Shown one piece after another: positions 33,907 through 58,032 of a DNA stretch of 64,000 bases. Numbering within the stretch: the first letter of the stretch is position 1; each line of letters starts with the position of its first letter. The translations under genes and the position numbers were made by a program. Under the pieces are notes generated by a model. It saw only the letters and a program-made list of their open reading frames with translations. It was not told the DNA's origin and did no database searches. Source of the stretch: Paraburkholderia sp. BL10I2N1 (GTDB lineage Bacteria > Pseudomonadota > Gammaproteobacteria > Burkholderiales > Burkholderiaceae); the NCBI RefSeq assembly GCF_004361815.1, contig NZ_SNWA01000002.1, forward strand, positions 1,798,001-1,862,000, in the 5' to 3' direction.

Positions 33907-33951
33907 TATACTTTCCATACAAGGCACGTCGTTCCTTATATGAAACATAAC
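33907..33951 (+). promoter_or_regulatory. Chemoreceptor promoter with IclR-type operator
   Basis: A -10-like TATACT (33907-33912) is followed at once by TTCCATA and, after exactly 18 bases, by GTTCCTTATATGAAACAT (33931-33948). The same layout and spacing occur before the ferredoxin-led operon (minus strand, 57766-57725) and the porin gene (57988-58029). The nearest -35 is weak. The element lies in the leader about 40 bases before the chemoreceptor ATG and probably binds an IclR-family protein. Confidence 0.65.
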
Positions 33952-33987
33952 GAGACATCCTCGCCACCTGACCGACCCATCAAAACC

Positions 33988-35550
33988 ATGAAAAATCTGA
34001 CGATCAATACGCGGATCGCGCTCACGATCGCCTTCCTCGGCGTGCTCCTGATTGCGACGGGTGTCCTCGGCATTCTCGGCATGGCCGAAAGCAATGAGGC
34101 GCAGCGCGAAGCGTATTCGGTTCACTTTGCTTCGGTGGTGGCGCTCGGCAAGTCCGCCACTGCGATGTCCCGCGCGCGTTTCGGTCTCGACTGGGCGATG
34201 GCGAATCCCCACTCGCCGCAACTGTCCACGCAGCTCGACCGCGCGAAGATGCTGCTCGGTGAATCGGACAAGTGGTGGGCAACGTTTCGCGATCTGCCGA
34301 AAACACCGCAGCTGCAAACGCTCACCGAGGATCTCGGCGCGAAGCGCACCGCGGTGCTGCGCGACGGCATCGACCAGCTGATCGAAGCCATCCATACTGG
34401 CGACGCAAGCTGGATGGACGAAAGCCGCGCGAATCATCTGATCGGTCTGTACACCGCGATGAACGCAAGCCAGAGCGCGCTCGAGCAGTATCTGAACGAC
34501 CAGGCCCAGGACGCAAGCGACCACTCCGCCACGCTCTTTCACACGTTGCTGGCGGCTTGTGCCGCTAGCGTCGTGCTCGGTCTGACGGTTGCGTTCTTTA
34601 GCTGGAGAACGCTGCGCAGCGCGATCATGTCGCCGCTGCGCGACGCGATGCGCCAGTTCGACGCCATCGCCGCCGGCGAACTGACGACCCGCGTGGCGAT
34701 CCGCTCCGACGACGAAATGGGCGCCTTGCTACATGGTCTCGCGGCCATGCAGGACAAGCTCGGTGCAACAGTGACCAACGTGCGCACGGGTTCGCATTCG
34801 ATCGCGACCTCGACGCAGCAGATCGCCGCCGGCAATCTCGACCTGTCGCAACGGACGGAAGAGCAGGCCGCCTCGCTCGAAGAGACCGCGTCGGCGATGG
34901 AGCAGCTCACCGCAACAGTGCAACTGAACGCCGCCAATGCGCAGCATGCGAGCGAACTCGCGCTCGGCGCATCGGACATGGCGGCGCGCGGACGTCACGC
35001 CGTCGGCAGCATGGTCGAGACGATGCGGGCGATTCACGCCGGCTCGTCGAAGATGACAGGCATCATCACCGCGATCGAAGGCATCGCGTTCCAGACCAAC
35101 ATTCTTGCGCTGAACGCCGCTGTCGAAGCCGCGCGCGCCGGTGAAGAAGGACGCGGCTTTGCCGTCGTCGCGGGCGAAGTGCGCAGCCTCGCACAGCGCT
35201 CGTCCGCGGCGGCGAAGGAGATCGGCACGCTGATCGCCGAGTCGACGGGGCGCGTGGAAACCGGCGCGGGTCTCGTCAACGAAGCGGGCAACACGATGCA
35301 GGAAATCGAAACCGCGACTACGCGCGTCGCGCGCCTCGTCGGCGAAATTGCCCAGGCTTCGCAGGAACAGAGCGACGGCATCCAGCAGGTCAGCCTCGCC
35401 GTCACGCAGATGGATGAGGTCACGCAGCAGAACGCGGCGCTCGTCGAGGAAAGCGCGGCGACGGCCGCGTCACTCGCGGAGCAGGCGCGCAAGCTGAGCG
35501 AGCTGACCGCATCGTTCAAGGTCGCGGGCGAGAACAACGTCTACGCATGA
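33988..35550 (+). CDS. Methyl-accepting chemotaxis protein
   Basis: 520 residues from the ATG at 33988; an upstream in-frame ATG at 33940 lies inside the operator-like element. TM1 is near residues 8-30, followed by a four-helix-bundle periplasmic sensor, TM2 near 190-212, HAMP ([28 protein letters not shown]) and a cytoplasmic signalling domain with the hairpin tip [20 protein letters not shown]. There is no C-terminal CheR-docking pentapeptide. It should bind a small ligand and signal to CheA. Its promoter element matches those of the catabolic operon and porin, so its attractant may be the substrate of that pathway (inference). Confidence 0.93.
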
Positions 35551-35794
35551 CAGAACGTCCGGTGACCGGATAGCGAACGCATAAGCAGATAACAACCGGC
35601 TAACAACCAGGTGGAAACCGGATGGCGCCTGACAAGCAGCCGTGCAGCTCACTCCCGTGACCACGAAACGCATGCGATCACGTCCGATCAAAACTCCGGC
35701 GTGACCCTTGTTCGAGTAGACTGACCGACGTTGTCTTCATGTTCTTTAGAGTCAACTCACCGGGCTGGCTCGGTCGCGCAAGGAGGCGTTACCC

Positions 35795-36955
35795 ATGCAT
35801 GCAGTCCCCACGCTCGAAAGCGGCACCCGCAACGATGCTGCTTCCGGAGCAAGCGCGGAGGCGCCCGTGCGCGACCTGCGCCGCGTCCCTATTCATCCCG
35901 ACCACTGGTATCCCCTGGCGTGGTCGCACGAAGTCAAGCGCGGCAAGGCCCATGGCGTGCGCTTCGCCGGCCAGCCGATCGTGATCGTGCGCACGGAATC
36001 CGGCACTGTGTTCGCGCTGGAGGATCGCTGCGCGCATCGACAGGTGCCGCTGCACGCAGGCGTGGTCAAGGGCGAATCGATCCGCTGCTGCTATCACGGC
36101 TGGACCTACGATTGCACCGGCCGCTGCATCGACGTGCCGTATCTGGGCCGGGAGCGGCTGCCCAATGGCGTGCGTTCGTATCCGTGCCGCGAAAAGGAAG
36201 GCCTGATCTTCGTATTCCCCGGCGACGCTGCGATTGCTGAAGAACGGCCGTTACCCGAACTGGGTTCGGTGGCCGACAAGACGTACAAGACCCGTCGCTT
36301 TGGCCGCGAGGTGAAGTGTCACTATTCGTTCATGCACGAGAACCTGATGGACATGAACCATCAGTTCCTGCATCGCAGGCAGATGGGTCAGATGCGCGCG
36401 CGTTCACTGGGACGCCGTCGCGGTGACGACTGGGTCGAAGTGAACTATACGTTCGCGCGGATGGAGGGCAAGCAGCCGGTCGGCGAGGCGCTCGTGTTCG
36501 GTCAGAGCCGTACGGACGGAGGGCAGAACGACAAGGACGTCATGACGATCCGTACCTGCTATCCGTACCAGACGCTGCAGATCCGCACCGCCGCGCAGAA
36601 TCTCGTGATGAACCTGTGGATCGTGTATGTGCCGCTCGATGCGGAACAGCGCACCAACCGCACGTTCGGCCTGCTGTCGATCAAGAAGCCGGGCATTCCC
36701 GGCGCGCTCGACCTGGCGTGGCCGTTGCTCGTGTGGTTCACGGAACGCATCTTCAAGGAAGATCGCGAGATCGTCGAAGCGGAACAGGAAGCGCACGACA
36801 AACAGGGCTCGGACTGGAATCACGAGGTGTTTCCTGTGATCCTCGAACTGCGGGATCTGCTGCGTGAGCGCGGTGTGCTGGAATTGACGCCACGCGGCGC
36901 GAGTCATGAAACCAGGGCAGAGGCATGGCAACCGTTGACGCGAATGCCACGCTGA
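35795..36955 (+). CDS. Rieske [2Fe-2S] aromatic ring-hydroxylating oxygenase, alpha type
   Basis: 386 residues. The Rieske cluster ligands are C79-x-H81 (RCAHRQVPLHAG) and C98-x2-H101 (CCYHGWTYD). The catalytic iron motif is ENLMDMNHQFLHR (Asp, His, His). It belongs to the vanillate demethylase/phenylpropionate-type single-component oxygenases that need separate reductase partners; none is adjacent. Its last 31 bases overlap the start of an isochorismatase-family remnant, so the two were once translationally coupled. The gene follows the chemoreceptor by 244 bases. Confidence 0.9.
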   Translation: MHAVPTLESGTRNDAASGASAEAPVRDLRRVPIHPDHWYPLAWSHEVKRGKAHGVRFAGQPIVIVRTESGTVFALEDRCAHRQVPLHAGVVKGESIRCCYHGWTYDCTGRCIDVPYLGRERLPNGVRSYPCREKEGLIFVFPGDAAIAEERPLPELGSVADKTYKTRRFGREVKCHYSFMHENLMDMNHQFLHRRQMGQMRARSLGRRRGDDWVEVNYTFARMEGKQPVGEALVFGQSRTDGGQNDKDVMTIRTCYPYQTLQIRTAAQNLVMNLWIVYVPLDAEQRTNRTFGLLSIKKPGIPGALDLAWPLLVWFTERIFKEDREIVEAEQEAHDKQGSDWNHEVFPVILELRDLLRERGVLELTPRGASHETRAEAWQPLTRMPR

Positions 36956-37075
36956 TCGTCATCGACATGCAGACCGGCATCCAGCATCCGAAGCTGGGCC
37001 GGCGCACCAATCCGCACAACCGTGCAGGTCCCCGACGCGGCTGCCACGGGGCAATCGCACCACAACACCAGCGCG
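36925..37075 (+). pseudogene. Remnant of an isochorismatase-family cysteine hydrolase
   Basis: The ATG at 36925 opens a frame reading ATLIVIDMQTGIQHPKLGRR, the unmistakable N-terminus of isochorismatase-like hydrolases (catalytic Asp in VIDMQ). After about residue 34 the family resemblance stops, near 37025, and the remaining bases run into the stop of a convergent LysR gene at 37080. The nucleophile Cys and most of the roughly 190-residue domain are missing. A deletion or the arrival of the LysR segment appears to have cut it off. Confidence 0.7.
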
Positions 37076-37079
37076 GCAG

Positions 37080-38889: not shown

Positions 38890-38939
38890 TGGACTGAAGT
38901 CCTCATACCCTATAGATGGATCGAAAGGAGAAACACAAG

Positions 38940-44201: not shown

Positions 44202-45605
44202 TCAGGCCTCCAGTTGCTCCAGCACCTTGCCCTTCGTCTCGATCCCGAGGAAGTGCACGGTGATCGCCGCAAGGAACGGCACGGCCGCGAGGATATAGAA
44301 CGCGACGTCGAGATTGCCGCCGATCATCGTCTTCGACACGATGGCCGGCGCGAAGATCGCCGCCACCTTCAGCCACGCGCCGCCGACGCCACAGCCGAAC
44401 GCACGGATGCTGGTCGGGTAAAGCTCAGGCGTGTAGACATACGCCGTGATGAAGCCGCAAGCCAGCAACCCGAGCGCCAGGGCGCAGAACGTCGCGACCA
44501 CATACACCGACGACGCGTGGAACACGCCGGCCAGTACCAGTGACAGCGCACACAGCAGGAACGACACGTTGATGATCGGCTTGCGTCCCACCTTGTCGAC
44601 CAGCAGCGCGCAAGTCAGCGACCCGAGCACGCCTAGCACCGAAGCCGCGACGGCCAGATTCAACGCGAGTTGCAGCGGCGCGTGATAAACGGTGCGGTAG
44701 ATCGTCGGCAACCAGGTCGACAGACCATACTGGATGAAGCCGCAGGTGATCCAGAGCATCGCGACCGCCAGCGTGCGCTTCAGGTAAGCCGGGCCGAACA
44801 GGTCTTTCATGCGGCGCTTCGGATGGCGATTCGCCAGCGCGTCGAATTCCGCCGCTTGCGTAACGGGCGCGAGCGAGCCCTTCGCGGTGCGTTCGAACGC
44901 CTGCACGGCAGCGTCGGCATCGTTCATCCGTTCGCGCTCGGCGAGCCAGCGCGGCGATTCCGGCACGAGCTTGCGCAGCGTGAAGAACAGGATCAACGGC
45001 ATACCGCCGATAAAGTACATCGCTTCCCAACCGAAACGCGGCACGATCCAGGCGCCGAGCGCGTTCGATGCGAGCAACCCGATCGGAAACACGATTTCAT
45101 ATAGCAGCACGAAGCGGCCGCGGCCGTGCGCACGGCTGATTTCGTTGATGTACGTGGCCGCCACCGGCAATTCACCACCCAGCCCGAAGCCCTGAATCAC
45201 GCGCAGCGCGACGAACACAACGAAGGTCGGCGCAAACCCGCACGCGATACTCGTCAAACCGATGATCCCCGAACTCCAGGCGATGGCGCGCACGCGGCCA
45301 TGACGCTCGGCGAGCCAGGGGAACAGGAACGCTCCAAATAGCTGGCCGACCGAACCCGAAGCGATCAGAAAGCCGATCTCCCACGGCGTCAGATGCCATT
45401 TCTGGATCAGGATCGGCAGCGTCGCGGCAATCGCGATGACGTCGAAGCCATCGAAAAACGTTGCCAGTCCGATCAGGATCCGCGCGCGGATCTGCATTGC
45501 GTTGGTCGGCAGCCGCTCGAGCCGCGCAATGATCGATCCCCGCGTGACGGGGCCGAAGACACCGGCGCCGCCTCGATGCTCAATGATGTTGTCGATGGTT
45601 CTCAT
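44202..45605 (-). CDS. MFS transporter, aromatic-acid/sugar porter type
   Basis: 467 residues, 12 membrane helices. The N-terminus FFDGFDVIAIAATLPILIQKW carries the DGFD motif of aromatic acid:H+ symporters (PcaK/BenK-like), and WLAERHGRVRAIAWS is the MFS loop 2-3 motif; VPESPRWLAERERM follows helix 6. It probably imports the substrate of the operon across the inner membrane. It is the last gene of the 14-gene catabolic unit, 27 bases after the ferredoxin reductase gene, and ends just before a terminator. Confidence 0.9.
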   Translation of the reverse strand: MRTIDNIIEHRGGAGVFGPVTRGSIIARLERLPTNAMQIRARILIGLATFFDGFDVIAIAATLPILIQKWHLTPWEIGFLIASGSVGQLFGAFLFPWLAERHGRVRAIAWSSGIIGLTSIACGFAPTFVVFVALRVIQGFGLGGELPVAATYINEISRAHGRGRFVLLYEIVFPIGLLASNALGAWIVPRFGWEAMYFIGGMPLILFFTLRKLVPESPRWLAERERMNDADAAVQAFERTAKGSLAPVTQAAEFDALANRHPKRRMKDLFGPAYLKRTLAVAMLWITCGFIQYGLSTWLPTIYRTVYHAPLQLALNLAVAASVLGVLGSLTCALLVDKVGRKPIINVSFLLCALSLVLAGVFHASSVYVVATFCALALGLLACGFITAYVYTPELYPTSIRAFGCGVGGAWLKVAAIFAPAIVSKTMIGGNLDVAFYILAAVPFLAAITVHFLGIETKGKVLEQLEA

Positions 45606-45632
45606 GCCTGGTGTCCCGTGCCGTTGTTGGGG

Positions 45633-46886: not shown

Positions 46887-47845
46887 TTTTTCTGCTCCGT
46901 CATGAACTTGCCTGCCGGCGCACTCACGTTCTTCTGACGACGCGTATTACCGTCGATGCCGCCGTCGATCGCCCATTCGGCGAACACGGTCGGGCCCGGT
47001 TCGAAGTCGCGCGGCTGCCATTCGGGCGTGAGCATGTCTTCGTCGGCGTAGTACTCGATCAGGCCGCCGGCCGGATTCTTGAAGTACCAGAAGTACGCCG
47101 ACGAAACCGGATGCCGGCCCGGTCCGAGCTGCGTTTCCCAGCCGCAACGGCTGATATGCATGCCGCCGCCGAACACTTCGTGGATGTCGCGCACGGTGAA
47201 CGCCACGTGATTCAGGCCGCGCTTGCCGTTGGGCAGCGCAAGCAGAAAGATGTCGTGGTGGCCGCCGTGCGGGGCGCAGCGCATGAACGCGCCGCGGCCC
47301 GGGTAACGGTCCGACATCTCGAAGCCGAGCAGTTCCTGATAGAACTTCTCCTGCTCCGCGAGGCAGTTCGTGAAGAACACGACGTGCCCCACTTCGACCG
47401 GTTCCGCGCGCTCGTAAATCGGCGACGGCTGGTCGACGCGCAACGTCTGGCCCCACACGTTAGACGGGGAGCCGTGCACGTCGACCGCCCGCTTGCGCGT
47501 GACTTCAACGCGGATCGCCATGCCGCCCGGGTCGAAACAGCCGACGGCGTCGTCCGTTTCGAAATGGCCCGGCTGACCGGCGAAGCGCCCGCGCAGTGCG
47601 TCGAGATCGGCGCGCGTGGCGACGCCCCAGGTCACTTCGCGCAACGTCGGGCCTTCTTCGAAGGCGGGCGGCAGCGACGGATCGTTCGCGTCGACGACGA
47701 GGATCGTGCAGCCGTTCAGCGTTTCGAAGCGGGCGCGTGTTTCATCGTGCGCGGTCTCTTTCAGGCCCCAATCGGCGAAAAACCGCCGACAGGTAGCGAG
47801 ATCCGTCACGCCATAGGTAATCTGTTCGATGCCGAGAATGCTCAT
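46883..47845 (-). CDS. Extradiol-type VOC dioxygenase
   Basis: 320 residues with two VOC modules (residues 1-140 and 145-300), as in type I extradiol catechol dioxygenases. The metal triad appears intact in the second module: H154 (EVGHVVFF), H213 (LNHVAFTVRD) and E264 (GGLIEYYAD), with an active-site His around 193-197. It should open a catecholic ring next to the hydroxyls using Fe(II) and O2. Overlaps both neighbours by ATGA, so it is tightly coupled to the aldehyde dehydrogenase and reductase genes. Substrate unknown. Confidence 0.88.
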   Translation of the reverse strand: MSILGIEQITYGVTDLATCRRFFADWGLKETAHDETRARFETLNGCTILVVDANDPSLPPAFEEGPTLREVTWGVATRADLDALRGRFAGQPGHFETDDAVGCFDPGGMAIRVEVTRKRAVDVHGSPSNVWGQTLRVDQPSPIYERAEPVEVGHVVFFTNCLAEQEKFYQELLGFEMSDRYPGRGAFMRCAPHGGHHDIFLLALPNGKRGLNHVAFTVRDIHEVFGGGMHISRCGWETQLGPGRHPVSSAYFWYFKNPAGGLIEYYADEDMLTPEWQPRDFEPGPTVFAEWAIDGGIDGNTRRQKNVSAPAGKFMTEQKK

Positions 47846-49371
47846 TGCTTACCTCTTGAGTGCTCTTCAATGCGCCGTTCCTGGTTAGCCCACGGCAGCG
47901 GGGCGTCGTTCAAGCCCCAGTAAAGGCTCTTTTGCTGCATGTATTCGCGGATGCCGAGGCGGCCCTTCTCGCGACCCATGCCGCTTTCCTTCCAGCCGCT
48001 GAACGGCGTCGAAATCGAAAACAGCTTGTAGGTATTGATCCACACGGTGCCCGCTTCCAGCGCACGGGCGACGCGCCATGCGCGCTTGTAGTCGCGCGTC
48101 CAGATGCCGGCGGCGAGACCGAAGACGCTGTCGTTTGCATCCTTGATCAGCGACGCTTCGTCATCGAACGGCATGGCGACCAGCACCGGCCCGAAGATTT
48201 CTTCCTGGCAGATGCGCGCGCTGTTCGGCAGACCTTCGAGGATCGTCGGCTGGTAGAAGAAGCCGTTTTCGCGTCCCTCGCCAGGCGGGCGTTCGCCGCC
48301 GCACAGCAGACGGCCGCCCTCTTCCAGCCCGAGCGCAACGTAACGTTCGACCGACTCGCGATGCTTTGCGGAAATCAGCGGACCCATCTGCGTTTCAGCG
48401 TGCGACGGATCGCCGACGCGCAGCTTGCGTGCGCCTTCGGCGAGCCGCTTCATGAATTCAGCGTAGAGGGGACGCTGCACGAAGAGCCGCGACCCCGCGA
48501 TGCATGCCTCGCCCGAAGAGCTGAAAATACCGTACAGCACGCCGTTGACCGCGTGGTCGAGATCGGCGTCGTCGAATACGATGGTCGGCGATTTGCCGCC
48601 CAGTTCAAGCGACACGGGCATCAGCTTTTCAGCGGCGATACGCGCGATGCCGCGGCCAACGTCGGTGCCGCCGGTAAATGACACTTTCTTCACGAGCGGA
48701 TGGCGCACCAGCGCGTCGCCGATCACCGAGCCCTTGCCGGGCAGCACGCTCAACACGCCTTTCGGCACGCCCGCTTCTTCGCAGATGCGCGCGAGCGCCA
48801 GCGAGACGAGCGGCGTCACTTCCGCCGGCTTCAGCACGACCGCGTCACCTGCTGCGAGCGCCGGCGCCAGCTTCTGCGCGTCGGAAGCGATCGGCGAGTT
48901 CCACGGCGTGATCGCCGCGATGACGCCGATCGGCTCATGCACGCTCATCGTCAGATAGTCGCCGCGCGATGGCGTCAGTTCTTCGTCGAGCGTTTCGAGG
49001 CACGCCGCGAAATAGCGGAACGTGTTCGCGGCACTCGCCACGAGGACACGCGTTTCGGCAATCGGCTTGCCGTTGTCGCGGCGTTGCAGATGCGCAAGCG
49101 CTTCGTGGCGCTGCGTGATCAGATCGGCGATGCGATACAGCACCAGTGCGCGCTGATGTGGCTTCAGTCCCGCCCAGTCCGCCTGGCGCCAGGCGAGATC
49201 GGCGGCTTCGACAGCTTCCTTCGCGTCCTCGGCGCTGGCCGTGGAGATTTCCATGTTCACCGACTGATCCGCCGGGTAAATGCTCGTGTAAGGCGCAGCG
49301 CGGCCGCGCCGCCATTCGCCGCCAATCAGGATGTCGCAGGATGGAACCAGGCTGGTATCGAAAGGAGTCAT
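47842..49371 (-). CDS. NAD(P)-dependent aldehyde dehydrogenase
   Basis: 509 residues. The active-site set is complete: N158 (PWNSP), E256 (LELGGKSP) and nucleophile C290 (SSGEACIAGSR); cofactor loop SFTGGTDVGR at about 232-241. It resembles the 2-hydroxymuconic-semialdehyde/betaine aldehyde dehydrogenase group. It would oxidise an aldehyde made by ring cleavage or by the ThDP-dependent decarboxylase of the operon (inference). It overlaps the VOC dioxygenase start by four bases. Confidence 0.93.
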   Translation of the reverse strand: MTPFDTSLVPSCDILIGGEWRRGRAAPYTSIYPADQSVNMEISTASAEDAKEAVEAADLAWRQADWAGLKPHQRALVLYRIADLITQRHEALAHLQRRDNGKPIAETRVLVASAANTFRYFAACLETLDEELTPSRGDYLTMSVHEPIGVIAAITPWNSPIASDAQKLAPALAAGDAVVLKPAEVTPLVSLALARICEEAGVPKGVLSVLPGKGSVIGDALVRHPLVKKVSFTGGTDVGRGIARIAAEKLMPVSLELGGKSPTIVFDDADLDHAVNGVLYGIFSSSGEACIAGSRLFVQRPLYAEFMKRLAEGARKLRVGDPSHAETQMGPLISAKHRESVERYVALGLEEGGRLLCGGERPPGEGRENGFFYQPTILEGLPNSARICQEEIFGPVLVAMPFDDEASLIKDANDSVFGLAAGIWTRDYKRAWRVARALEAGTVWINTYKLFSISTPFSGWKESGMGREKGRLGIREYMQQKSLYWGLNDAPLPWANQERRIEEHSRGKQ

Positions 49372-49439
49372 GTCTAGGGTCCGTCAGATCAGGTACTTCA
49401 GCTCAATTGCATTCGCTCAGTTGCGTCAGCTCAGTTGCG

Positions 49440-50276
49440 TCAAATGACGCAGTGCGCCGCGCGGTTGCGCAGCGCGCGGATCGCGCTGTACGCGGTCAGT
49501 GCGGACGTCTTGGGGTTGTCAGGCAATGGTTTGCCGCACATTTCCAGCGACATCTCACCGAACGCGCCCCGCGCGACGATGCGGTGCACGTTGCGTGTCA
49601 CCGACGGATCCGCGATCAGGCGCACCAGCGTCTGGTCGAGACCGAGGCCGGCGAGCGCAATGGTCGCCGCGACGTTCGCGTTCTTCGGATAGAGTCGCGC
49701 CGCGTCCCGTGCACTGCCTTCGAAGATCACGCGTTCAGCGGCGAGCGTGTTCAGGTCGCACACTTCTTCGGCCGGCGTGCCGAGCCAGCCGACCGGCGGC
49801 TTGCGGCCCGTGTACACCACTTCGTCGAGACCGCCGAGTTTCGCCGCCGACAGCGCATCGATGCCGCCGATCGCGCCGGACAGCAACGTCAGCGTGGCAT
49901 CGCCCTGGTCCGCCGCGGCGGACAGCAGGTCGAGCAGCGTGACATCGGACAGCGCGCCGATCGACGCGACCGCGCAGTCGGTGCCCGCCTTCAGGAGCGG
50001 CACGACATGGTCGACGAGCGCGCCGTGCCCTGCGCATTCCAGCGCGAACTGCGGGCGGCTCGACAACGCATCGACCGACGACACCACGTCGACCGACGAT
50101 CCCACGACTTCACGCACCGATGCCGTATAGCGCTCCGGCACGATCACATGCGACACACGTACCTGCGGATCGGCCGCAACAGCGCGGTACACCGTCTGTC
50201 CGATCGCGCCGAAGCCGATCATCGCGATGTCGATGGGCGCATGGTTCGCACCACGCGCGTGATGGGCATCACGCAT
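49440..50276 (-). CDS. Aspartate dehydrogenase-like protein (NadX family)
   Basis: 278 residues. The Rossmann motif GFGAIGQ is at 21-27, and the C-terminal DUF108 domain contains [18 protein letters not shown] and [17 protein letters not shown], as in L-aspartate dehydrogenases. Such enzymes interconvert aspartate and oxaloacetate with NAD(P)H and ammonia, and often feed NAD synthesis. Here it sits in a catabolic operon, overlapping the ThDP enzyme gene by eight bases, so it may act on a pathway imine or amine intermediate instead (inference). Confidence 0.85.
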
Positions 50277-51927
50277 GTTCCGGCTCCTCTTTCTTGACCG
50301 GCGGCCCCGCGAACGCGGTCGTGAAGCTGCCGACCGACTTCATGTCGACTTCGACCAGCACCGGGCCGACCTTGTCGAGACCTTGCCGGATGATGTCGTC
50401 GGCCTGATTGAGCGACGACAGACGGTAATGAGTGAGACCCAGGCTCGCGCAGAACTGCGAGAAGTCCGGTTGGTGCAGATCGACGTAGTAGCGACGGCCG
50501 CCGTACTGCGCGTCCTGAATGTTGCGGATCACGCCGTAGCACTGGTCGTTCATCAGCACGATCATCACGTTGGCGTTTTCCTGCACGGCCGTCGCGAGTT
50601 CGCCGACGTTGACCATCAGGCCGCCGTCGCCAACCAGACAGACGGTCTTCGATGCCGATTCCGCCAGCGCCGCGCCGATCGCCATCTGCATGCCCTGGCC
50701 GATGCCGCCGCCAAGCGCGTGCACGCCCGCACGCGGCGTAAAGATCTTCAGCATGCGGTTGCCCCACGTGCTGTTCGAGATCGTCACGTCGCGGACCCAG
50801 TTGTAGTCGCGGCCCACCAGGCGTTGCAGCGATTCGACCAGCTGGCGATACGGGCCGAGACCCTTCGCGGTTTCCGCAACAGCCGTCTCGCGTGCGGCAG
50901 CGAGGTCGCCGGCGAACGAAGGATCGACCTTCAGCTTGCCTTCGAGACGCGTCGCCAGTGCATCGAGGACCGCCGCGGCGTCGCCGTGCACGAACAGATC
51001 GTTGCGATAGCCGCGGTTGTCGGCGAGCGCGTCGGCGTCGATGCGATAGAGCGGCTGCGGCAGCGCAAGCTTGTACTTCAGCGTTTCGTTGCCACGCAGA
51101 CGCGAACCGACCACCACCAGTGCGTCGCACGTCTTGTAGAAGCTTTCGACGGCCGGATGCACGTTGAACGCGCCGAGCGTCGCCGGATGATCTTCCGGCA
51201 GCACGCCGCGACCCTGCACGCTGGTCACGACGCCAAAGCCGAGCGCCACCAGACGTTCGACCGCGGAACGCGCATGGCGCGTGCCGCCGCCCAGCCACAG
51301 CAGCGGACGCTTCGCATTCGTCAGCGCCTGCGCGAGTTTTTCGACGCGTGCGTCGTCGTGCGTCAGCGTCGTGACGTGCGGCGCCGTCATGTCTTCCGGC
51401 CAGTCGGCGAGAGCCGCCTGGATGTCGATCGGGATTTCCACGCTAACCGGGCCACTCGGTGCCGTATGCGCGACGCGCACGGCTTCGCGGATCGTCGGCA
51501 GGGCGGTTTCCACCGAGCGCACGCGGAACGCGGCCTTCGAGATCGACTGAAGCATCGACAGCTGATCCGGCGCTTCGTGGATGTATGCGAGGTCCTGATC
51601 AAGGTATTCGGTTTCGATCTGGCCGGTGATGTGCAGCATCGCGGTGCCGGCGGTCAGTGCCTCGACCAGCGCGCCTGCCGCGTTGCCTGCGGCCGTGCCG
51701 GTGCTCGTAAACGCCACGCCGAGACTGCCCGACACCCGCGCGAGGCCGTCAGCCATGTTGACCGCGCCGGCTTCGCCGCGCGCGCCGACATAGCGGATGT
51801 TGCCGCGTCGCCCGATCGCGTCGAGGATCGGCATGTTGTGGATCGAGATCACGCCGAACGCCGTACGCACGCCGCATTGTTCGAGAAAGGCGGCAATCAG
51901 CTCGCCGATGGTGGTTTTGTTAGACAT
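50269..51927 (-). CDS. ThDP-dependent enzyme, acetolactate synthase/benzoylformate decarboxylase family
   Basis: 552 residues from the ATG at 51927. The cofactor-activating glutamate is E52 ([14 protein letters not shown]). The central domain follows, then the ThDP/Mg motif [21 protein letters not shown] with [10 protein letters not shown] near 440-480. Family members decarboxylate 2-keto acids or join them. In this operon, next to an aldehyde dehydrogenase gene, a 2-keto-acid decarboxylase role is most likely (inference). It overlaps both the preceding SDR and the following dehydrogenase genes by eight bases. Confidence 0.9.
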
Positions 51928-52726
51928 GACGTGCATTGCCTCCAGAAACATCGATGTGACTGCCCGTCGTGTAGGACGACTGAGCGGTGGCCAGATAAAA
52001 GAGTGCCTGCGCCGCTTCTTCGGGACGTCCGAAGCGGCCGAGCGGAATGTTCTTCCTGCGCGCGAGTTCGCCGGTCCAGTCTTCCCAGCTTTGACCCGGC
52101 TGCGCCTGGGTTTCGAAACGGCGGCGCCATTGCCCCGACTCGACGATGCCGATCAAAATCGAATTCACGCGAATCCGCTGCGGCGCGAGTTCACCAGCCA
52201 GCGACTTGATGAGACTCAGCACGCCCGCGCGGGCCGACGAAGTCGCCACCATGTGCGGCTCCGGCTGCAACGCAAGCAGCGAGTTCACGCAGACGATCGA
52301 CGCGTTGCCCGAGCCCGCGGCATCGCGCAGCATCGGCAGGAACGCGCGCGTCGGGCGAATGATGCTGAAGTACTTCAGGTCGAGTTCCTCGCGCCAGGCG
52401 TCGTCCGTGGTGTCGGCGAACGTCGAGACGCGGCCCTGGCCGGCGTTGTTCACCAGCATGTCGATGCGGCCAAAGCGCGTTTGCACCGCCTGCGCGAACG
52501 CGTTGACGTCGTCGCCGTCGAGCACGTCGCAGCGCGCCGCCAGCAGCTGAGCTTGCGGGAAGCGCTCGCGCAGCGCGCTTTCGGCGCACGCGAGACGCCC
52601 GCCGTCGCGGCCGCAGATCGCCACCGATGCGCCAGCCTGCAGAAAGAGTTCGGCCGTCGCGAGCCCGATGCCGGACGACCCGCCCGTCACCACTGCGACC
52701 TGTCCGGTCAAGTCGATTTGAATCAT
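51920..52726 (-). CDS. SDR-family protein with altered catalytic residues
   Basis: 268 residues with normal Rossmann motif TGGSSGIG (14-21) and NNAG (93-96). The active site is unusual: Ser149 is in place (VCVNSLLAL), but the Tyr expected 13 residues later is Thr162 and the following Lys is Arg166 (ATSSARAG). The rest of the helix (SLIKSLAGELAPQRIRVNSI) is standard. It may be catalytically changed or a non-enzymatic subunit. Gene order and overlap with the ThDP gene make it part of the catabolic operon. Confidence 0.88.
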   Translation of the reverse strand: MIQIDLTGQVAVVTGGSSGIGLATAELFLQAGASVAICGRDGGRLACAESALRERFPQAQLLAARCDVLDGDDVNAFAQAVQTRFGRIDMLVNNAGQGRVSTFADTTDDAWREELDLKYFSIIRPTRAFLPMLRDAAGSGNASIVCVNSLLALQPEPHMVATSSARAGVLSLIKSLAGELAPQRIRVNSILIGIVESGQWRRRFETQAQPGQSWEDWTGELARRKNIPLGRFGRPEEAAQALFYLATAQSSYTTGSHIDVSGGNARHV

Positions 52727-53586
52727 CAGATCCCCAATGCCTTCATGTACTGGCTTCTTGCCGGCGGCCGGTAGTTGAGCCGCTTCGAGAGTTCGTCGGC
52801 CGCGCGCCGGACCTTGTCGACGAGGCCGCTGTCGAGCAGCGACGCATCGATCTCAGGCCGCGGAATCGTCGTCGTAATGACCGCGACGATGCGGCCGGTG
52901 TCGTTGCGCACCGGCGCCGACACCACCGAAATACCGCGCTCGAACGACGACTCGCTGATCGCGAAGCCGCGAATTGCATCGTCGCGGATGCGCTCATAAA
53001 GCGCTTCGATCGTTTCCGGCGTGTGCTGCGTATAGCGTTCGAGCTTCGGCTCGGGATACAGCTCGCGCAGATCGTCGAGCGTGAAGTCGCCCATCAGCAC
53101 CTGGCCGTGCGTCGTTGCATGAGCAGGCAGGCGCGTGCCGACGTTCACCTTCACCGAGCTGAAAATCGGCGCATGGCTTTGCGCCTTCGCAACGAAGACG
53201 ACATCGCGTCCATCGCGGATCACGATGTGGCTCGTGAGGCCGGTTTCGTTGCGCAGCCCTTCGATGATCGGCAGACCAAGATCCGTCAATTCCAGCGAGC
53301 TCAGGTATTCAAAACCAAGGCGCAGCACGGCGACGCCCAGGCGATAGTTGCGATCGCGGTCGGCCCGCTCGAGAAAGCCCAGCGATTCGAGCGTCTGCAG
53401 CAGACGGAATACCGTCGTACGGGGAATGCCAAGACGCTTCGACAGTTCGGGCGCGCCGAGCACCGGCTCGCGTGGCGAAAATTCAGTGAGAATCCGCAGA
53501 CCGCGTTCGAGACCCGGCACGCGATAGTTCGTATCGCTGCGGTCTTCGTCTGCTTCGCGGGCTGGATCCGTCATATCAGGGGTCAT
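52726..53586 (-). CDS. IclR-family regulator inside the catabolic operon
   Basis: 286 residues. The N-terminal winged HTH is VPGLERGLRILTEFS through IPRTTVFRLLQTLESLGFLERA, followed by the IclR effector domain (GLTSHIVIRDGRDVVFVAKAQS and ISVVSAPVRNDTGRIVAVITTTIP). It is highly similar to the IclR gene at 59265-60221, with a near-identical recognition helix. Embedded in the operon, it is probably autoregulated and binds the operators upstream of the ferredoxin, porin and chemoreceptor genes (inference). Confidence 0.92.
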   Translation of the reverse strand: MTPDMTDPAREADEDRSDTNYRVPGLERGLRILTEFSPREPVLGAPELSKRLGIPRTTVFRLLQTLESLGFLERADRDRNYRLGVAVLRLGFEYLSSLELTDLGLPIIEGLRNETGLTSHIVIRDGRDVVFVAKAQSHAPIFSSVKVNVGTRLPAHATTHGQVLMGDFTLDDLRELYPEPKLERYTQHTPETIEALYERIRDDAIRGFAISESSFERGISVVSAPVRNDTGRIVAVITTTIPRPEIDASLLDSGLVDKVRRAADELSKRLNYRPPARSQYMKALGI

Positions 53587-54501
53587 TCAGAGACTCCGTT
53601 GTCCAGCGTTTGCGGCGTTGACAACACCTGCTGCACCCGCACGGCAGAAGGTATCGAGGATGGCGTTGTACGCGGAGGGCGCTTCGATGTAGCCCGCGTG
53701 TCCGGCACGCGGCACGATCTGAAACGGCGCGCGTGCAAGCTGGGCGAGACGCTCGCAGGCAGCGGGCGGCGTGATGCTGTCTTCCGCGCCAACTGCCACG
53801 GCTACGCGACCGTCGAATGCGGCCAGATCGGAGGCGAGGTCGGCGTTGGCGAGCAGATGCGTCGCCTGCGCATAACCGTGCGGCACGACGCGCGACATGT
53901 TCCAGCGGACCCAGCTGCGTGCGGTGTCGTCGGCATACGCCGACAGCATGTTCGCGCTGCGCTTTTCAGCGAGGCCTGCGGGGCCGAGTTCGGCGAGCAT
54001 CGCAAGACGCGCGTCACGCTTGGACGCACGCACCTCGGGCGACGCGGCACCATACCCGCCAGCGGGCGAAACCAGCAGCAGACCGGCAACCCGATGCGCG
54101 TTCGCCGCGGCGAATGCGCCCGCGACGATCGCGCCCAGCGAATGTCCGACCAGCATGCAACGCCCGATACCGAGCGCGTCGAGCCACGCCTTCAGCACGT
54201 TCGCGTAGTCTGAAGCGACCGGCGACGATGCGTCGACCGGCGTCGAAGCGCCATAACCGGGCGCATCCCACGCAAGGACGCGCCGGGTCGAACCGAGCCC
54301 TTCGAACTGCTGAACCCATGACGCCGCGCCCGAACCGATGCCATGCAGCAGCACGAGCGGCAACGCTTCAGTATTCGCAGCGCCCGCTTCGCGATAGCTC
54401 ACGATGCGCTGTGCGGTGACGACCTGCTGCGCGGGAAACTGCGCGAGGCGCGTTTCGAGCGAAGCAGCAGATTGAGCGGTGACGGTGATGGCTTCTGACA
54501 T
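53587..54501 (-). CDS. Alpha/beta hydrolase (C-C bond or ester hydrolase type)
   Basis: 304 residues. Oxyanion region LLHGIGSGAASW near residue 52, nucleophile elbow GHSLG with S121, acid Asp in VGAEDSITPP, and His in GHAGYIEAP. This resembles meta-cleavage product hydrolases of aromatic pathways (BphD/MhpC class), which split the ring-opened product after extradiol cleavage; 3-oxoadipate enol-lactonase-like activity is an alternative. It immediately precedes the IclR gene with no gap, 42 bases after the cupin gene. Confidence 0.88.
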   Translation of the reverse strand: MSEAITVTAQSAASLETRLAQFPAQQVVTAQRIVSYREAGAANTEALPLVLLHGIGSGAASWVQQFEGLGSTRRVLAWDAPGYGASTPVDASSPVASDYANVLKAWLDALGIGRCMLVGHSLGAIVAGAFAAANAHRVAGLLLVSPAGGYGAASPEVRASKRDARLAMLAELGPAGLAEKRSANMLSAYADDTARSWVRWNMSRVVPHGYAQATHLLANADLASDLAAFDGRVAVAVGAEDSITPPAACERLAQLARAPFQIVPRAGHAGYIEAPSAYNAILDTFCRAGAAGVVNAANAGQRSL

Positions 54502-54543
54502 GACTTCGATTGAAGGGTGCGGGTGACCTGGCGGGCGCGTGAC

Positions 54544-55083
54544 TTAGCGCGTGACTGAGCTCTTGAGCTTCGCGAGCGGCGAATCCGGCGGATAGGTCGG
54601 CGTGATGGGCTTCGGCGAACCGAGCATCACGCACATCAGCGCGTCTTCCTCACCGATGTTCACTTCCGTGCGGTACACGCCGGGCGGCACCGAGATCAGA
54701 TCGCGTTCACCGATCACGGATTCCCACGTTTCGCCGTCCTTCTCGCAGATCACCTTCATCTTTCCGCGCAGCACGAAGAAGATTTCCTCGACATCCATAT
54801 GGATGTGGCTCGGGCCGATGTTGCCGGCCGGAATCACCATCGTCGAGAACGTGAAGCCGCCGGCCGGGACCGTGTTCACATCCTTCGCGACGCCCGTGCC
54901 GCCCGTGCCGACGTAGCGCATCTGCGCACGGCGGTACTTCGGGTCGTAGTCGGCCTGGAACCTCAGGGCGTCCCAGTCATAACGGCGGGTTTCAAGGCGC
55001 GCGACGCGGCTTTCCATCCACTGCGCAAAGCTCGCATCCGTAGGTTGGTCCCACGATTTGCGTTCGATATCTGCATCGGCCAT
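54544..55083 (-). CDS. Cupin-domain protein
   Basis: 179 residues from the ATG at 55083 with AAGGAG upstream. A single cupin barrel: GPSHIHMDVEEIFFVLRGKMKV (His, His, Glu) and ERDLISVPPGVYRTEVNIGEEDA (the family's last His is replaced by Tyr or Glu here). An N-terminal extension of about 75 residues precedes it. Could be a ring-cleaving or isomerising enzyme, or a non-enzymatic metal-binding partner. Part of the catabolic operon, 26 bases after an SDR gene. Confidence 0.85.
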   Translation of the reverse strand: MADADIERKSWDQPTDASFAQWMESRVARLETRRYDWDALRFQADYDPKYRRAQMRYVGTGGTGVAKDVNTVPAGGFTFSTMVIPAGNIGPSHIHMDVEEIFFVLRGKMKVICEKDGETWESVIGERDLISVPPGVYRTEVNIGEEDALMCVMLGSPKPITPTYPPDSPLAKLKSSVTR

Positions 55084-55109
55084 CGATTTCTCCTTTCGAT
55101 TCGACTGGG

Positions 55110-55877
55110 TCAATTCATCACAAAGCCGCCATTGACCGGCAACAACTGGCCAGTCACAAAGCGCGCGGCGTCGGACAACAGAAACAGGACCGGCCCCGTG
55201 ACGTCGTCGGGAACCTGCGCGCGCGTCAGCGCGCGACCTTGTTTGTAGTATTCGTGGCGCTCGGCGGGCACATACGCCGTCGCCTCGACTTCGGTGAGCC
55301 CCGGCGCGATTGCGTTGACCGTAATGCCGTGAGCGCCGAATTCGCGTGCGAGCGAGTGCGTCATCGAAATCACCGCGCCCTTGCTCGCGACATAGGCGAG
55401 CAGCTTCGGCGCGCCCCACAGGGCGGTGTCCGACGCGATGTTCACAATGGCGCCGCGGCCCGAATCACGCAGATGCGGCAGCGCTGCGATGCTCGCGAGC
55501 CAGGTGCCGCGCACGTTCACATTCATCACCGCATCCCACGTTTCCGTGCTCAGTTCGGTTGCGAGCTTGCCGCCGGAATAGGTGATCGCCGCGTTGTTGA
55601 TGAGGCCGTCGATGCCTCCCAAACGCTTCGCACCTTCGTCGACGAACGCCGTGATGGTTTGCGGTTGCGACAGATCGAGCGGCACGTACGACACGTCATG
55701 CCCCTGCTCGCACAGCGAGGCAGCGAGTGCGCGGCCTTCGTCGTGCAGCAGGTCGCCGAACACCACGCGGGCTCCCGCTGCGCCGAGCGCCGCGACGAAC
55801 GCCGCGCCGAGCCCGCGCGCGCCACCCGTGACGAGTACGCGCCGGCCAGCCAGTGCCCCGGACGCAGCGTTATGCAT
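55110..55877 (-). CDS. SDR-family dehydrogenase
   Basis: 255 residues from the ATG at 55877, overlapping the oxygenase gene by eight bases. Intact motifs: TGGARGLG at 17-24, NNAA in place of NNAG, Ser in VNIASDTALW, and YVASKGAV (Tyr-x3-Lys). Directly after a Rieske oxygenase gene, it is the natural candidate for the cis-dihydrodiol dehydrogenase that rearomatises the ring to a catechol (inference), although those enzymes differ in detail. Confidence 0.9.
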   Translation of the reverse strand: MHNAASGALAGRRVLVTGGARGLGAAFVAALGAAGARVVFGDLLHDEGRALAASLCEQGHDVSYVPLDLSQPQTITAFVDEGAKRLGGIDGLINNAAITYSGGKLATELSTETWDAVMNVNVRGTWLASIAALPHLRDSGRGAIVNIASDTALWGAPKLLAYVASKGAVISMTHSLAREFGAHGITVNAIAPGLTEVEATAYVPAERHEYYKQGRALTRAQVPDDVTGPVLFLLSDAARFVTGQLLPVNGGFVMN

Positions 55878-56958
55878 GGCTATGTCCCGCGTGGCTGGCT
55901 TCGGTCGCGGCGCCTGCGAGCTGCACGCGGTGCGCATCAAGATCTACGAAGTGCTGTTGGGCACGTTGACGCAGCATGCGGCGCACGCGCGTCATGCCGA
56001 CGTCGTGCTGATACAGGAATTCGTGATCGCGCGCATTCGGCGCCATGCTTTCGAGGACGTAGCGGTCCTGCTCGAGCACCGCCCAGTGCAGTCCTTCGAG
56101 GCGGTTGCGGTACATGAAGCGCCATGCGTCGCGCTGCCAGCCCGATACCTTGCGGGTGCGCCAGAAGTAGACCTGGCAGTTGTCTCCATCGGTAGGAACG
56201 GCGAAACCGATAATCCCGAAGTTGCCGCCCGGGCCGAACTTCTTCTTGTACGGAATCGCGAGGCGCATCCACAGGACACCGGTCTCGCCGAGCTCGACCC
56301 AGTCGAAGTTCACATCGCGCTGACCGACCTTTTCGAACATCAGACCGGTTTCGGTCTTGCGCACGCGCATGTCGGCCTGCTTGTCGCCTTCGGCCATCGA
56401 GTGCGACGTCGCGTGCAGATACGCGCCGTGCATCGGGTCCATCACGTTGTCGATAGCGTACTGATAGTTGCACTTCCAGTTCGACACGCAGAGGAAGCTC
56501 GCGTATTCCTCGCCGACCAGTTCTTCCGGCAGCGCGAGCGGCGTGGGTTCCTTGTGCGCGTCGTCGCCGAACCACAGGAAGATCGCGCCTGCGTGCTCTT
56601 CGACCGGATACGACTTCACGCACTTCTGCCCTTCAAGCGGACAGGCCGACACGGCCGGCACCTTGGCCACCGTGCCGCCACCGTCGATTTCGATGCCGTG
56701 ATACCAGCAGGCGACGCTGCCGCCCAGGTTCCAGCCCAGCGACAGACGCGCGCCGCGGTGCGGGCAGCGATCTTCGAGTGCGTGGACGCGGCCTTCCTGA
56801 TCGCGCCACAGCACGATCTGGTCGCCGAGGCGCGTGAGGCCGACCGGGGCGTTGCTGACCTGCCAGCTCGGTGCCACGGGATACCAGTAGTTGCGCAGGC
56901 CACGGTCGAGGTAAGCCTGGACCGGATCGACGGAATTTGCAGTTGTGGGGGACGTCAT
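55870..56958 (-). CDS. Rieske oxygenase alpha subunit of the catabolic operon
   Basis: 362 residues from the ATG at 56958 with CGGAG upstream. Rieske ligands C65-x-H67 and C84-x2-H87. The catalytic iron site is NVMDPMHGAYLH with D174, H177 and H182. It belongs to the alpha-only, carbazole/phenoxybenzoate-type oxygenases; no beta subunit gene is present. With the ferredoxin (57387) and reductase (45633) it forms a three-component system. The His-rich tail (ASHAGHSHA) is unusual. It would insert oxygen into an aromatic ring or carry out demethylation. Confidence 0.92.
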   Translation of the reverse strand: MTSPTTANSVDPVQAYLDRGLRNYWYPVAPSWQVSNAPVGLTRLGDQIVLWRDQEGRVHALEDRCPHRGARLSLGWNLGGSVACWYHGIEIDGGGTVAKVPAVSACPLEGQKCVKSYPVEEHAGAIFLWFGDDAHKEPTPLALPEELVGEEYASFLCVSNWKCNYQYAIDNVMDPMHGAYLHATSHSMAEGDKQADMRVRKTETGLMFEKVGQRDVNFDWVELGETGVLWMRLAIPYKKKFGPGGNFGIIGFAVPTDGDNCQVYFWRTRKVSGWQRDAWRFMYRNRLEGLHWAVLEQDRYVLESMAPNARDHEFLYQHDVGMTRVRRMLRQRAQQHFVDLDAHRVQLAGAATEASHAGHSHA

Positions 56959-57073
56959 GAAAAGACTCCGGGTACGTGTTCTTTGAGACTTGATCGGGGC
57001 CGGCTTGCAGTGGACCAACCACCGGGGCAGGCCGAGACGGGCGTGAGCCCATCCCGTTCGTGCAGGTCGTTCT

Positions 57074-57385
57074 TTATTCAGCGAGCAGACGGAATTCGGC
57101 GGCGAGACGCTCGGCGTTCCATTGGCAGCCTTCCGGCGTGCGGAAACCGATACGGTTCAAACCGTCGACCACCTCGTCGAGCTCCACCGCGCCTGCTTCG
57201 AACACTTTTTCGAGCGCATCGCCGAAGTCGTTCTCGTACTGCGTCGGCTCGGCTTTGCGCGTTTGCCAGATGAAGTTTTCGGTTTCGCCCGGCTTCTCGA
57301 TGACGCCCTTGCCGGCCACGTTGTTCGGCTGCGGCGCAAGCCACGGCTTGAGATGAGGATTGAAGTTCACGGCTACCTCTCGCAT
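57074..57385 (-). CDS. Small protein with recombinase-like HTH domain
   Basis: 103 residues from the ATG at 57385, with AGGTGG upstream and one base after the ferredoxin stop. It matches what I recall being annotated as a recombinase-like helix-turn-helix protein: NPHLKPWLAPQPNNVAGKGV near the start, GETENFIWQTR in the middle, and FGDALEKVFEAGAVELDEVV with DGLNRIGFRTPEGCQWN at the end. The role is unknown. Its fixed place between ferredoxin and oxygenase genes suggests an accessory to the oxygenase rather than a DNA recombinase (inference). Confidence 0.8.
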   Translation of the reverse strand: MREVAVNFNPHLKPWLAPQPNNVAGKGVIEKPGETENFIWQTRKAEPTQYENDFGDALEKVFEAGAVELDEVVDGLNRIGFRTPEGCQWNAERLAAEFRLLAE

Positions 57386-57386
57386 G

Positions 57387-57701
57387 TCATTCCACCTTGA
57401 TCTGGATTTCTTCACCGGCGAGGCGCACCGCGTACATCTTCAGATCGCGGCCGCCCGGCTCTTTCAGACACTTGCCGGTCGGGATATGGAACACGGCTTC
57501 GTGCAGCGGACATTCGACGGTGTCGCCATCGATAAAGCCCTGCGTCAGCAACGCGTACGCATGAGGGCAGACGTTTTCGAGCGCATAAAGCTCGTCGCCC
57601 ACCTTGTAGATGCCGATTTCGGTGCCGTCGAGTTTGTACTCGAGCGGTTCGTCATCGGACAGGTCGCCGGCATGTCCGGCACAGCGCCATTCTTCAGCCA
57701 T
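57387..57701 (-). CDS. Rieske-type [2Fe-2S] ferredoxin
   Basis: 104 residues, the size of BphA3/NahAb-type ferredoxins. Cluster ligands C45-x-H47 (VCPHAYALL) and C64-x2-H67 (ECPLHEAVF). It carries electrons from the FAD reductase to the oxygenase alpha subunit. It is the first gene of the 14-gene operon; a promoter with TATAAT and an IclR-type palindrome lies 24-65 bases upstream. Confidence 0.95.
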   Translation of the reverse strand: MAEEWRCAGHAGDLSDDEPLEYKLDGTEIGIYKVGDELYALENVCPHAYALLTQGFIDGDTVECPLHEAVFHIPTGKCLKEPGGRDLKMYAVRLAGEEIQIKVE

Positions 57702-57724
57702 TTCTCACCTTCTCCAGGACACTC

Positions 57725-57766
57725 ATGTTCCATATAAGGAACATTAGTTTATGTATGGTCATTATA
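57725..57766 (-). promoter_or_regulatory. Promoter and IclR-type operator of the catabolic operon
   Basis: On the minus strand TATAAT (57766-57761) is followed by GACCATACA and, after 18 bases, by GTTCCTTATATGGAACAT (57742-57725). On the plus strand the site is a perfect 20-bp inverted repeat, ATGTTCC-ATATAA-GGAACAT (57725-57744). A TTGTCG 15 bases upstream of TATAAT is a possible -35. A palindrome just downstream of the -10 suits a repressor. Confidence 0.75.
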
Positions 57767-57987
57767 GAAGTCGGTCCGCGGCGACAAAATAGAAATCTGC
57801 CGTTTCCAGGGAAAACACCGAGTGCGCGTCTCGAAATTGGTAGGCGTGTGGTACGAAGAATCCCGCTTCTGGTTGCCGAAACGCCCACCGCCAAAGGCTT
57901 TGCGCTGATTACAGAGAAACCCTGAGCTCCGCCGACTAAGGGTTTTCACTATCGCGAAAAAGTATTTTGACCAACTCCGAGTATCTC

Positions 57988-58032
57988 TATACTTTCCATA
58001 GGCGATACATACGCCCATAGGTGGAACATAAC
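57988..58032 (+). promoter_or_regulatory. Porin promoter with IclR-type operator
   Basis: TTGACC (57967-57972), 15 bases, then TATACT (57988-57993), TTCCATA, and after 18 bases CGCCCATAGGTGGAACAT (58012-58029). It matches the corresponding site before the ferredoxin gene at 12 of 18 positions with identical spacing, and the first 13 and last 8 bases of the block equal those of the chemoreceptor promoter. A probable regulon member. Confidence 0.65.

Follow-up and report, generated by a model that had tools for sequence, protein, structure and literature searches.

The stretch of DNA that was analysed from the soil-type bacterium Paraburkholderia sp. BL10I2N1, hereafter the window, comprises 64,000 nucleotides and carries a 14-gene catabolic operon, a porin gene, two genes for IclR paralogs and a chemoreceptor gene. 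These are located as follows:

33988..35550, plus strand, chemoreceptor (TarH ligand domain, HAMP, MCP signal domain), with its start codon placed by comparison with orthologs
44202..57701, minus strand, catabolic operon, 14 genes
52726..53586, minus strand, IclR1, seventh operon gene
55870-57018, minus strand, Rieske oxygenase of the operon
57074-57415, minus strand, HTH_62 protein, second operon gene
57387-57701, minus strand, ferredoxin of the operon
58147..59220, plus strand, outer-membrane porin (Porin_4), transcribed divergently to the operon
59265..60221, minus strand, IclR2, convergent with the porin gene

The operon encodes, in order, a ferredoxin, the HTH_62 protein, the Rieske oxygenase, an SDR, a cupin, an alpha/beta hydrolase and IclR1 (genes 1-7), followed by an SDR, a TPP enzyme, an AspDH-like protein, an ALDH, an extradiol dioxygenase, a ferredoxin reductase and an MFS transporter (genes 8-14). 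Its conservation was judged among the matches listed, the MFS gene lying beyond the flanks compared; P. xenovorans LB400 also carries the cluster (locus L009). A substrate search through NCBIfam, Pfam, PDB and homologs returned enzyme classes only, with no substrate named. From the kinds of genes present (VOC dioxygenase, cupin, alpha/beta hydrolase), the cluster might be of the flavonoid (fde/ifc) type; the accessible part of PMC11069340 does not mention IclR, a porin or aspartate dehydrogenase. A further Rieske gene, Rieske2 (35795-36955), lies about 245 bases from the receptor gene, and its product shares 36% identity with the oxygenase of the operon over 161 aa. It was not found in the 25 longer of the 55 receptor-ortholog loci and was not counted as a regulon member sharing the chemoreceptor operator.

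IclR1 and IclR2 were found to be 70% identical over 264 aa, with 86% agreement across the HTH and 65% across the effector domain. IclR2 matched PF09339 and PF01614 above cut-off, and so has the winged HTH and effector domain of the IclR family. IclR1 was assigned to the family by its identity to IclR2; it matched IclR-type NCBIfam models, none above cut-off. The two proteins scored 168.8 and 169.4 bits with the PcaR/PcaU/PobR family model (TIGR02431), below its cut-off of 284.75. As the seventh gene of the operon, IclR1 is therefore under its own operator, and no match to the operator model described below was found upstream of IclR2.

The promoter regions of the three transcription units contain the following elements:

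33882..33912, plus strand, presumed chemoreceptor promoter, with sigma-28-like TTAA-N16-GCCGTTA (33882-33908) overlapping TATACT
33907-33912, plus strand, presumed -10 TATACT of the chemoreceptor, read directly
33913..33948, plus strand, chemoreceptor operator (own-genome model match, E 6.3e-8)
33913-33926, plus strand, its upstream site TTCCATACAAGGCA
33931-33946, plus strand, its downstream site GTTCCTTATATGAAAC, 19 bp from the upstream site
33931-33948, plus strand, chemoreceptor 18-mer GTTCCTTATATGAAACAT, read directly
57766-57761, minus strand, presumed -10 TATAAT of the operon, read directly
57725..57760, minus strand, catabolic operon operator (own-genome model match, E 2.8e-7)
57760-57747, minus strand, its upstream site GACCATACATAAAC
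57742-57727, minus strand, its downstream palindrome GTTCCTTATATGGAAC
57742-57725, minus strand, catabolic 18-mer GTTCCTTATATGGAACAT, read directly
57988-57993, plus strand, presumed -10 TATACT of the porin, read directly
57994..58029, plus strand, porin operator (own-genome model match, E 3.1e-5)
57994-58007, plus strand, its upstream site TTCCATAGGCGATA
58012-58027, plus strand, its downstream site CGCCCATAGGTGGAAC, left arm weak
58012-58029, plus strand, porin 18-mer CGCCCATAGGTGGAACAT, read directly

As the earlier note had described, TATAxT is followed at all three promoters by CCATA from the third base after the -10 and, across a gap of 18 bases, by an 18-mer. Direct reading gave the identities to the catabolic element that had been reported, 17/18 for the chemoreceptor and 12/18 for the porin. 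The common operator consists of two IclR-type sites with 19 bp spacing, TTCCATA-N12-TTCC-N6-GGAACAT, the upstream site being the degenerate one. According to the part of PMC8222616 available, group-1 IclR operators have GTTYC/GRAAC-type palindromes, and tandem sites lie 18-22 nt apart from centre to centre. The present element (GTTCC-N6-GGAAC, 19 nt) agrees with this class in motif and tandem spacing, with a degenerate upstream site and a weak left arm at the porin, and is accordingly read as a putative group-1 operator. The IclR assignment made earlier is also favoured by a relative (genome G457, locus L220) in which the motif accompanies an IclR pair beside a different porin, Rieske and ABC-transporter set.

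The 18-mer, searched with up to 3 mismatches, gave 3 matches in the 64-kb window, the third being the catabolic site on the opposite strand, and 0 in 100 shuffles. The loose palindrome ATRTTCC-N6-GGAACAT alone, with up to 3 mismatches, did not exceed chance expectation in the window (5 matches vs 3.5). When the three-block pattern was searched in the whole genome with up to 3 mismatches, the three sites ranked first (1, 2 and 2 mismatches), and the 2 extra matches at 3 mismatches equalled the reversed control (2). A model was then built from 107 of 108 sites, all chosen from other genomes; the porin site of locus L044 was excluded for its apparent wrong register. In the 9.2 Mb of the present genome this model matched just the three promoters (E 6e-8, 3e-7 and 3e-5; E up to 10), and the many unrelated promoters that the earlier note had named as grounds for abandoning the regulon did not appear.

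Among relatives, the operator was found with at most 4 mismatches in 18 upstream of 79/79 usable catabolic operons, 77/77 porins and 51/55 chemoreceptor orthologs. Patterns with shuffled letters (60 shuffles) reached that threshold in 0.0002 of operon, 0 of porin and 0.0012 of chemoreceptor regions. One of 80 operon loci and three of 80 porin loci were left out of these counts for a poor ferredoxin or porin match or too little upstream DNA; the L044 porin site, likely mis-registered, is still among the 77. The operator was absent at two chemoreceptors, L147 in G409, a genome that has the system, and L169 in G399, where the system is diverged (7 and 9 mismatches, respectively); at two further receptors the best match had 5 mismatches. 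A family-wide search with the pattern matched 85 of 398 genomes, with one for the reversed control among the matches listed.

Within the genus, 48 genomes were scanned with the model under stricter filters, which can lose weak sites. Sites were present in 34/34 genomes with the system and in 0/14 without it. Exactly the operon, porin and receptor sites were found in 20 of the 34, and exactly the operon and porin sites in 13 that have no receptor; G399 was the one genome where the receptor is present without its site. Two other weak places were matched, and reverse-strand repeat rows, each duplicating a listed site, were left out of the counts.

All 55 receptor genomes fell inside the 103 of 144 genomes having the system (Fisher p 3e-11); without counting the diverged system of G399, the figure was 54/55 (p 8e-10). 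The receptor gene was on a different contig from the system in 44 of the 55 genomes (many assemblies are drafts), and therefore regulation acts in trans; in 7 more it was over 760 kb distant. The IclR2 genome list comprised the same 103 genomes as that of the oxygenase, compared by eye, and at least two IclR matches were present in 101 of the 103. The two paralogs are the likely readers of the operator.

The equal distance from the -10 box, which had been considered improbable by chance, holds at the three sites in the window and is not a conserved feature. Gaps of 0, 1, 3 and 10 bases were seen in related operons and porins (in 3 rows a -10 could not be assigned), and of 9 or 12 in some related receptors. 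This variation led to its replacement as evidence; the rigid feature is the 19-bp spacing inside the operator.

The earlier proposal of a single regulon joining chemoreceptor, porin and operon is supported by the exclusivity of the sites in their own genome, their conservation at orthologs and the split of 34/34 against 0/14 genomes. With a chemoreceptor, an uptake protein and catabolic genes behind one operator, the present genome seems to hold a sensing-uptake-catabolism regulon, and very probably the cell turns on finding, admitting and degrading one compound together. We consider it highly probable that the regulon is closed on these three promoters and that an IclR-family regulator blocks them until it is released by the pathway substrate or by an early intermediate. 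Either or both of the cluster-adjoining paralogs would bind the tandem sites with their 19-bp spacing, probably in the form of a pair of adjacent dimers (a tetramer), and the bound DNA would extend over the presumed start of transcription and the bases transcribed first. The IclR proteins are probably repressors because the operator covers the presumed start. In the absence of ligand, the operon, including the IclR1 gene, would be silent together with the porin and the chemoreceptor; upon release, receptor, entry pore and enzymes would be made together. We infer the reading by IclR, the repression and the sensing, admission and degradation of one compound from this arrangement; the receptor ligand and the pathway substrate may differ.

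An IclR protein acting mainly as an activator of the same regulon, with the assumed -10 boxes not being real promoters, is unlikely. It would fit the poor appearance of the -35 elements adjoining these boxes and the relatives in which the presumed -10 lies 9-12 bases 5' of the operator, versus 0-3; PcaU and PobR are activators. Activator sites are expected 5' of the -35 region, whereas the operator here is 3' of a well-kept TATAAT/TATACT, and at the operon it ends 23 bases 5' of the start codon, which leaves no space for a downstream promoter.

We give very little credence to reading by another DNA-binding protein, chiefly the small HTH_62 protein, whose gene sits in the operon of relatives among the matches listed. 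The motif belongs to the IclR class, no HTH_62 match was found in the 19-kb G457 locus that has the operator and an IclR pair, and in G399 the HTH_62 protein is only 41% identical whereas the IclRs are 75-77% identical and the operator has been retained. Shared promoter sequence or chance, with no regulatory site at all, is scarcely credible. The three sites do have TATAxT and an A/T-rich upstream stretch in common, and the loose palindrome alone is at chance level in the window, but the operator persists where the -10 is displaced or the promoter has a different appearance. Within the limits of sequence evidence, the near-zero shuffled controls, the restriction of model matches to three promoters in the own genome and the presence of sites in system genomes alone across the 48 refute this explanation.

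IclR regulons uniting uptake, chemotaxis and catabolism are already known as a kind; the IclR-repressed regulon favoured here was not found in the literature searched. As for PcaR, PcaU, PobR and HmgR, an IclR protein adjoins an aromatic-type catabolic cluster. The motif in that group is GTNCG-N5-6-CGNAC, versus GTTCC-N6-GGAAC here, and the present system differs further in its operator 3' of the -10, its two paralogs and proteins under the NCBIfam PcaR/PcaU/PobR cut-off. PcaR controls pcaY. In the PcaR-PcaY/pcaRKF system of Pseudomonas putida, as far as the available source text describes it, an IclR-type regulator likewise links chemotaxis and uptake with a catabolic pathway, whereas pathway and receptor are different, and here a porin is a target and the receptor gene is mostly unlinked. 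The accessible part of PMC8222616 describes for PcaU, PobR and HmgR a palindrome with an extra half-site, or a tandem site about two turns away, resembling the accompanying site seen here. For the IclR repressor PheR of Sphingobium sp. SHPJ-2, the available part of PMC13273656 reports protection from +23 to -21 of the promoter and repression of uptake and catabolism; as is proposed here, the site overlaps the start of an operon for ring hydroxylation, and outer-membrane uptake is also restrained. In contrast, its motif has a GCAACG core, its uptake is TonB-type, and that part of the paper does not mention a chemoreceptor.

From sequence alone, the operator connects a catabolic pathway with a porin and an orphan chemoreceptor, whose predicted ligand is the substrate of that pathway. 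Receptor ligand, porin cargo and operon substrate thereby become a single testable question. A clean three-site regulon with a paralogous regulator pair would be a good small model for the recruitment of a chemotaxis gene to a pathway, because 48 of the 103 system genomes gave no receptor match at E 1e-30.

More tentatively, the two IclRs may be anciently duplicated paralogs with closely matching DNA-reading domains and diverged ligand domains, each acting on one shared set of tandem operators. Two chemical inputs, e.g. substrate and intermediate, would then gate chemotaxis, entry and catabolism, and the receptor would in addition depend on the motility sigma factor. The sigma-28 (FliA) consensus is a TAAA-N15/16-GCCGATAA-like element. 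With up to 1 mismatch, TAAA-N15/16-GCCGWTA was found at 6 of 21 MCP loci including the present receptor (control 0; 7 weaker of 28 MCP matches were excluded), and the bare pattern occurred 13 times genome-wide vs 16 for the control. TWAA-N16-GCCGWTA was present in 15 of the 55 receptor orthologs (reversed control 0).

Direct reading of the sequence showed that the elements described in the earlier note are present at the promoters of the catabolic operon, the porin and the chemoreceptor. Each was found to belong to a longer unit, TTCCATA-N12-TTCC-N6-GGAACAT, of which it is the downstream half. The unit contains two IclR-like sites with a centre-to-centre spacing of 19 bp and begins immediately after TATAxT at all three promoters of this window. 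We interpret it as a tandem pair whose first site is degenerate, rather than as a single site with a stray CCATA, because in the receptor orthologs the first site frequently retains TTCC-N6-GG (1.8 and 1.4 bits at its two Gs). In its available part, a survey of IclR sites reports palindromes of the GTTYC type as well as tandem sites with a spacing of 18-22 nt, mostly 19-21, and links these to tetramer binding (PMC8222616).

In order to evaluate specificity, the genome (9.2 Mb in 4 contigs, the window being positions 1,798,001-1,862,000 of contig 2) was scanned. The perfect 20-mer, allowing up to 3 mismatches, had matches at just two places, the operon and the chemoreceptor. With a three-block pattern the three promoters ranked top (1, 2 and 2 mismatches), and 2 more matches appeared at 3 mismatches, the same number as in the reversed control (2). 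The loose palindrome by itself was not enriched in the window (5 vs 3.5 by chance). A sequence-only model was then built from 107 sites of other genomes, and scoring covered 150 of the 1280 first-look candidates. It detected the chemoreceptor at E 6.3e-8, the operon at E 2.8e-7 and the porin at E 3.1e-5, and the remaining matches to E 10 were only the operon and chemoreceptor sites read on the opposite strand (0.04 and 0.4). The refuting outcome named in the earlier note, a matrix with many hits at unrelated promoters, did not occur, the hits of this model being at the three promoters only.

A set of 80 named loci that carry the Rieske oxygenase was fetched from Paraburkholderia, Caballeronia, Trinickia and Burkholderia. 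Among the matches listed, gene order across the operon, the divergently oriented porin and the two IclR genes was the same as here. Exceptions were contigs with an early end and cases such as L055, whose porin is only 32% identical and whose IclR2 is reversed. In this comparison the MFS gene was outside the fetched flanks. Judged by its cassette, the window belongs to Paraburkholderia or a very close genus. The nearest named record among these matches was that of P. sartisoli (L039). Taking the best match with up to 4/18 mismatches as presence, the operator was found upstream of 79/79 usable operons and 77/77 usable porins, a count that includes the porin site of L044, which seems mis-registered. 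Among 144 genomes of the genus, 55 had an ortholog of the receptor ligand domain (E up to 1e-30); the operator preceded 51 of them at up to 4 mismatches and 53 at up to 5, and no operator was detected within 5 mismatches in L147 and L169. In a shuffled-letter control (60 shuffles), 4 mismatches were reached in 0.02% (operon), 0% (porin) and 0.12% (receptor) of the regions. Family-wide, a related pattern matched in 85/398 genomes, with 1 match in the reversed control among the matches listed.

The equal distance between -10 box and operator, which had been taken as the sign of a common regulon, holds at the three promoters here and varies in the relatives. The gap from the presumed -10 to the first site was 0 in 36 and 1 in 41 of the 79 operons (2 without a -10 call); among the 77 porins it was 0 in 39, 1 in 25, 3 in 8 and 10 in 4 (1 without a call), and for the receptors it read 9 in several cases and 12 in L157. 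The 19 bp inside the unit remained constant while this gap varied. What is constrained is the operator itself; the equal -10 distance is a by-product.

The oxygenase was detected in 103/144 genomes (E up to 1e-120) and so was IclR2 (E up to 1e-90); the two lists were identical when compared by eye, and 101 genomes had at least two IclR matches. All 55 receptor genomes were among the 103 with the system (p 3e-11), or 54/55 (p 8e-10) when G399, whose oxygenase is about 55-56% identical, was not counted. The receptor was on a different contig in 44/55 (many being draft assemblies), more than 760 kb away in 7 further genomes, and within 22 kb in 4, including this one; the regulon would thus act in trans. 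Scanning 48 genomes with the model gave sites in 34/34 with the system and 0/14 without it. In 20 genomes there were exactly three sites, one each at operon, porin and receptor, and 13 receptor-less genomes showed the operon and porin sites alone; in G399 the operon type of site occurred twice and the porin type once, with no site at its receptor. Extra matches occurred in only two places, with E about 1e-3. The one in G340 (L223 2875-2910; tandem, 2 mismatches) is outside the system, directly 5' of the HTH domain of a Cro/C1-type gene and within the longest reading frame of that gene, and the one in G225 is upstream of an aconitase B gene.

Chemotaxis, transport and catabolism are reportedly tied together by IclR-type regulators in other systems, pcaRKF and PcaY being the precedents suggested by titles. 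The three-promoter regulon, well supported by sequence, would be a new instance of such a link. A search of openly accessible papers revealed nothing on this regulon; an earlier prediction is possible.

The likely readers of the operator are the following:
IclR1, gene 7 of the catabolic operon
IclR2, adjoining the porin

These proteins are 70% identical; compared over 77 loci each, their HTH agrees to 86% and their effector domain to 65%. Both are named IclR-family only, because NCBIfam does not assign them to the PcaR/PcaU/PobR family. The DUF3501 and GlpC-like iron-sulfur genes (60314-62284) lead into IclR2 on the same strand, and IclR2 may be part of their transcript. HTH_62, a small protein with a recombinase-like HTH (57074-57415), is encoded by operon gene 2 between ferredoxin and oxygenase, and recurs among the relatives listed.

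In G399 (L217) the IclRs are still 75-77% identical, with the oxygenase diverged to about 55-56%. This locus is rearranged, the oxygenase, HTH_62 and MFS genes lying past the porin and IclR2, and an extra operator copy precedes them. A second IclR pair (73% and 69% identical) was found in G457 (L220, about 5500-16300) together with another porin, a Rieske gene, a Fer2 reductase and an ABC transporter. The operator is present there with 2 and 3 mismatches, HTH_62 had no match at this locus, and the set is probably a sister regulon for a different substrate. Taken together, G399 and the G457 pair argue that the operator tracks the IclR proteins rather than the enzymes. At the locus of a more distant IclR (62%) in G310 (L218), no such operator was found within 4 mismatches.

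The operator spans the presumed transcription start together with the bases transcribed first, which is where a repressor usually sits. The IclR-type PheR, according to the accessible part of its description, covers its promoter from +23 to -21 in protection assays and is a repressor of both uptake and catabolism (PMC13273656). Given the weak -35 elements, room should be left for activation. Upstream of the operator, a sigma-28-like TWAA-N16-GCCGWTA was observed in 15/55 receptor orthologs, including this one (reversed control 0), at exactly 4 bases from it in 10 cases and 14 bases in 5 (L159, L161, L164, L165 and L167), that is, about one helical turn farther. In this genome, near matches were found at 6/21 MCP loci, one of them the present receptor (control 0); the bare pattern was not enriched genome-wide (13 vs 16 in the control). 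As a lead, receptor expression may also require the motility sigma factor.

A second Rieske oxygenase, a distant relative of the operon enzyme, is encoded about 245 bases downstream of the chemoreceptor (35795-36955); it was not detected beside the receptor in the 25 longer ortholog loci examined. A pirin/quercetinase-type gene (38089-38889) neighbours a divergent LysR gene (37080-37970).
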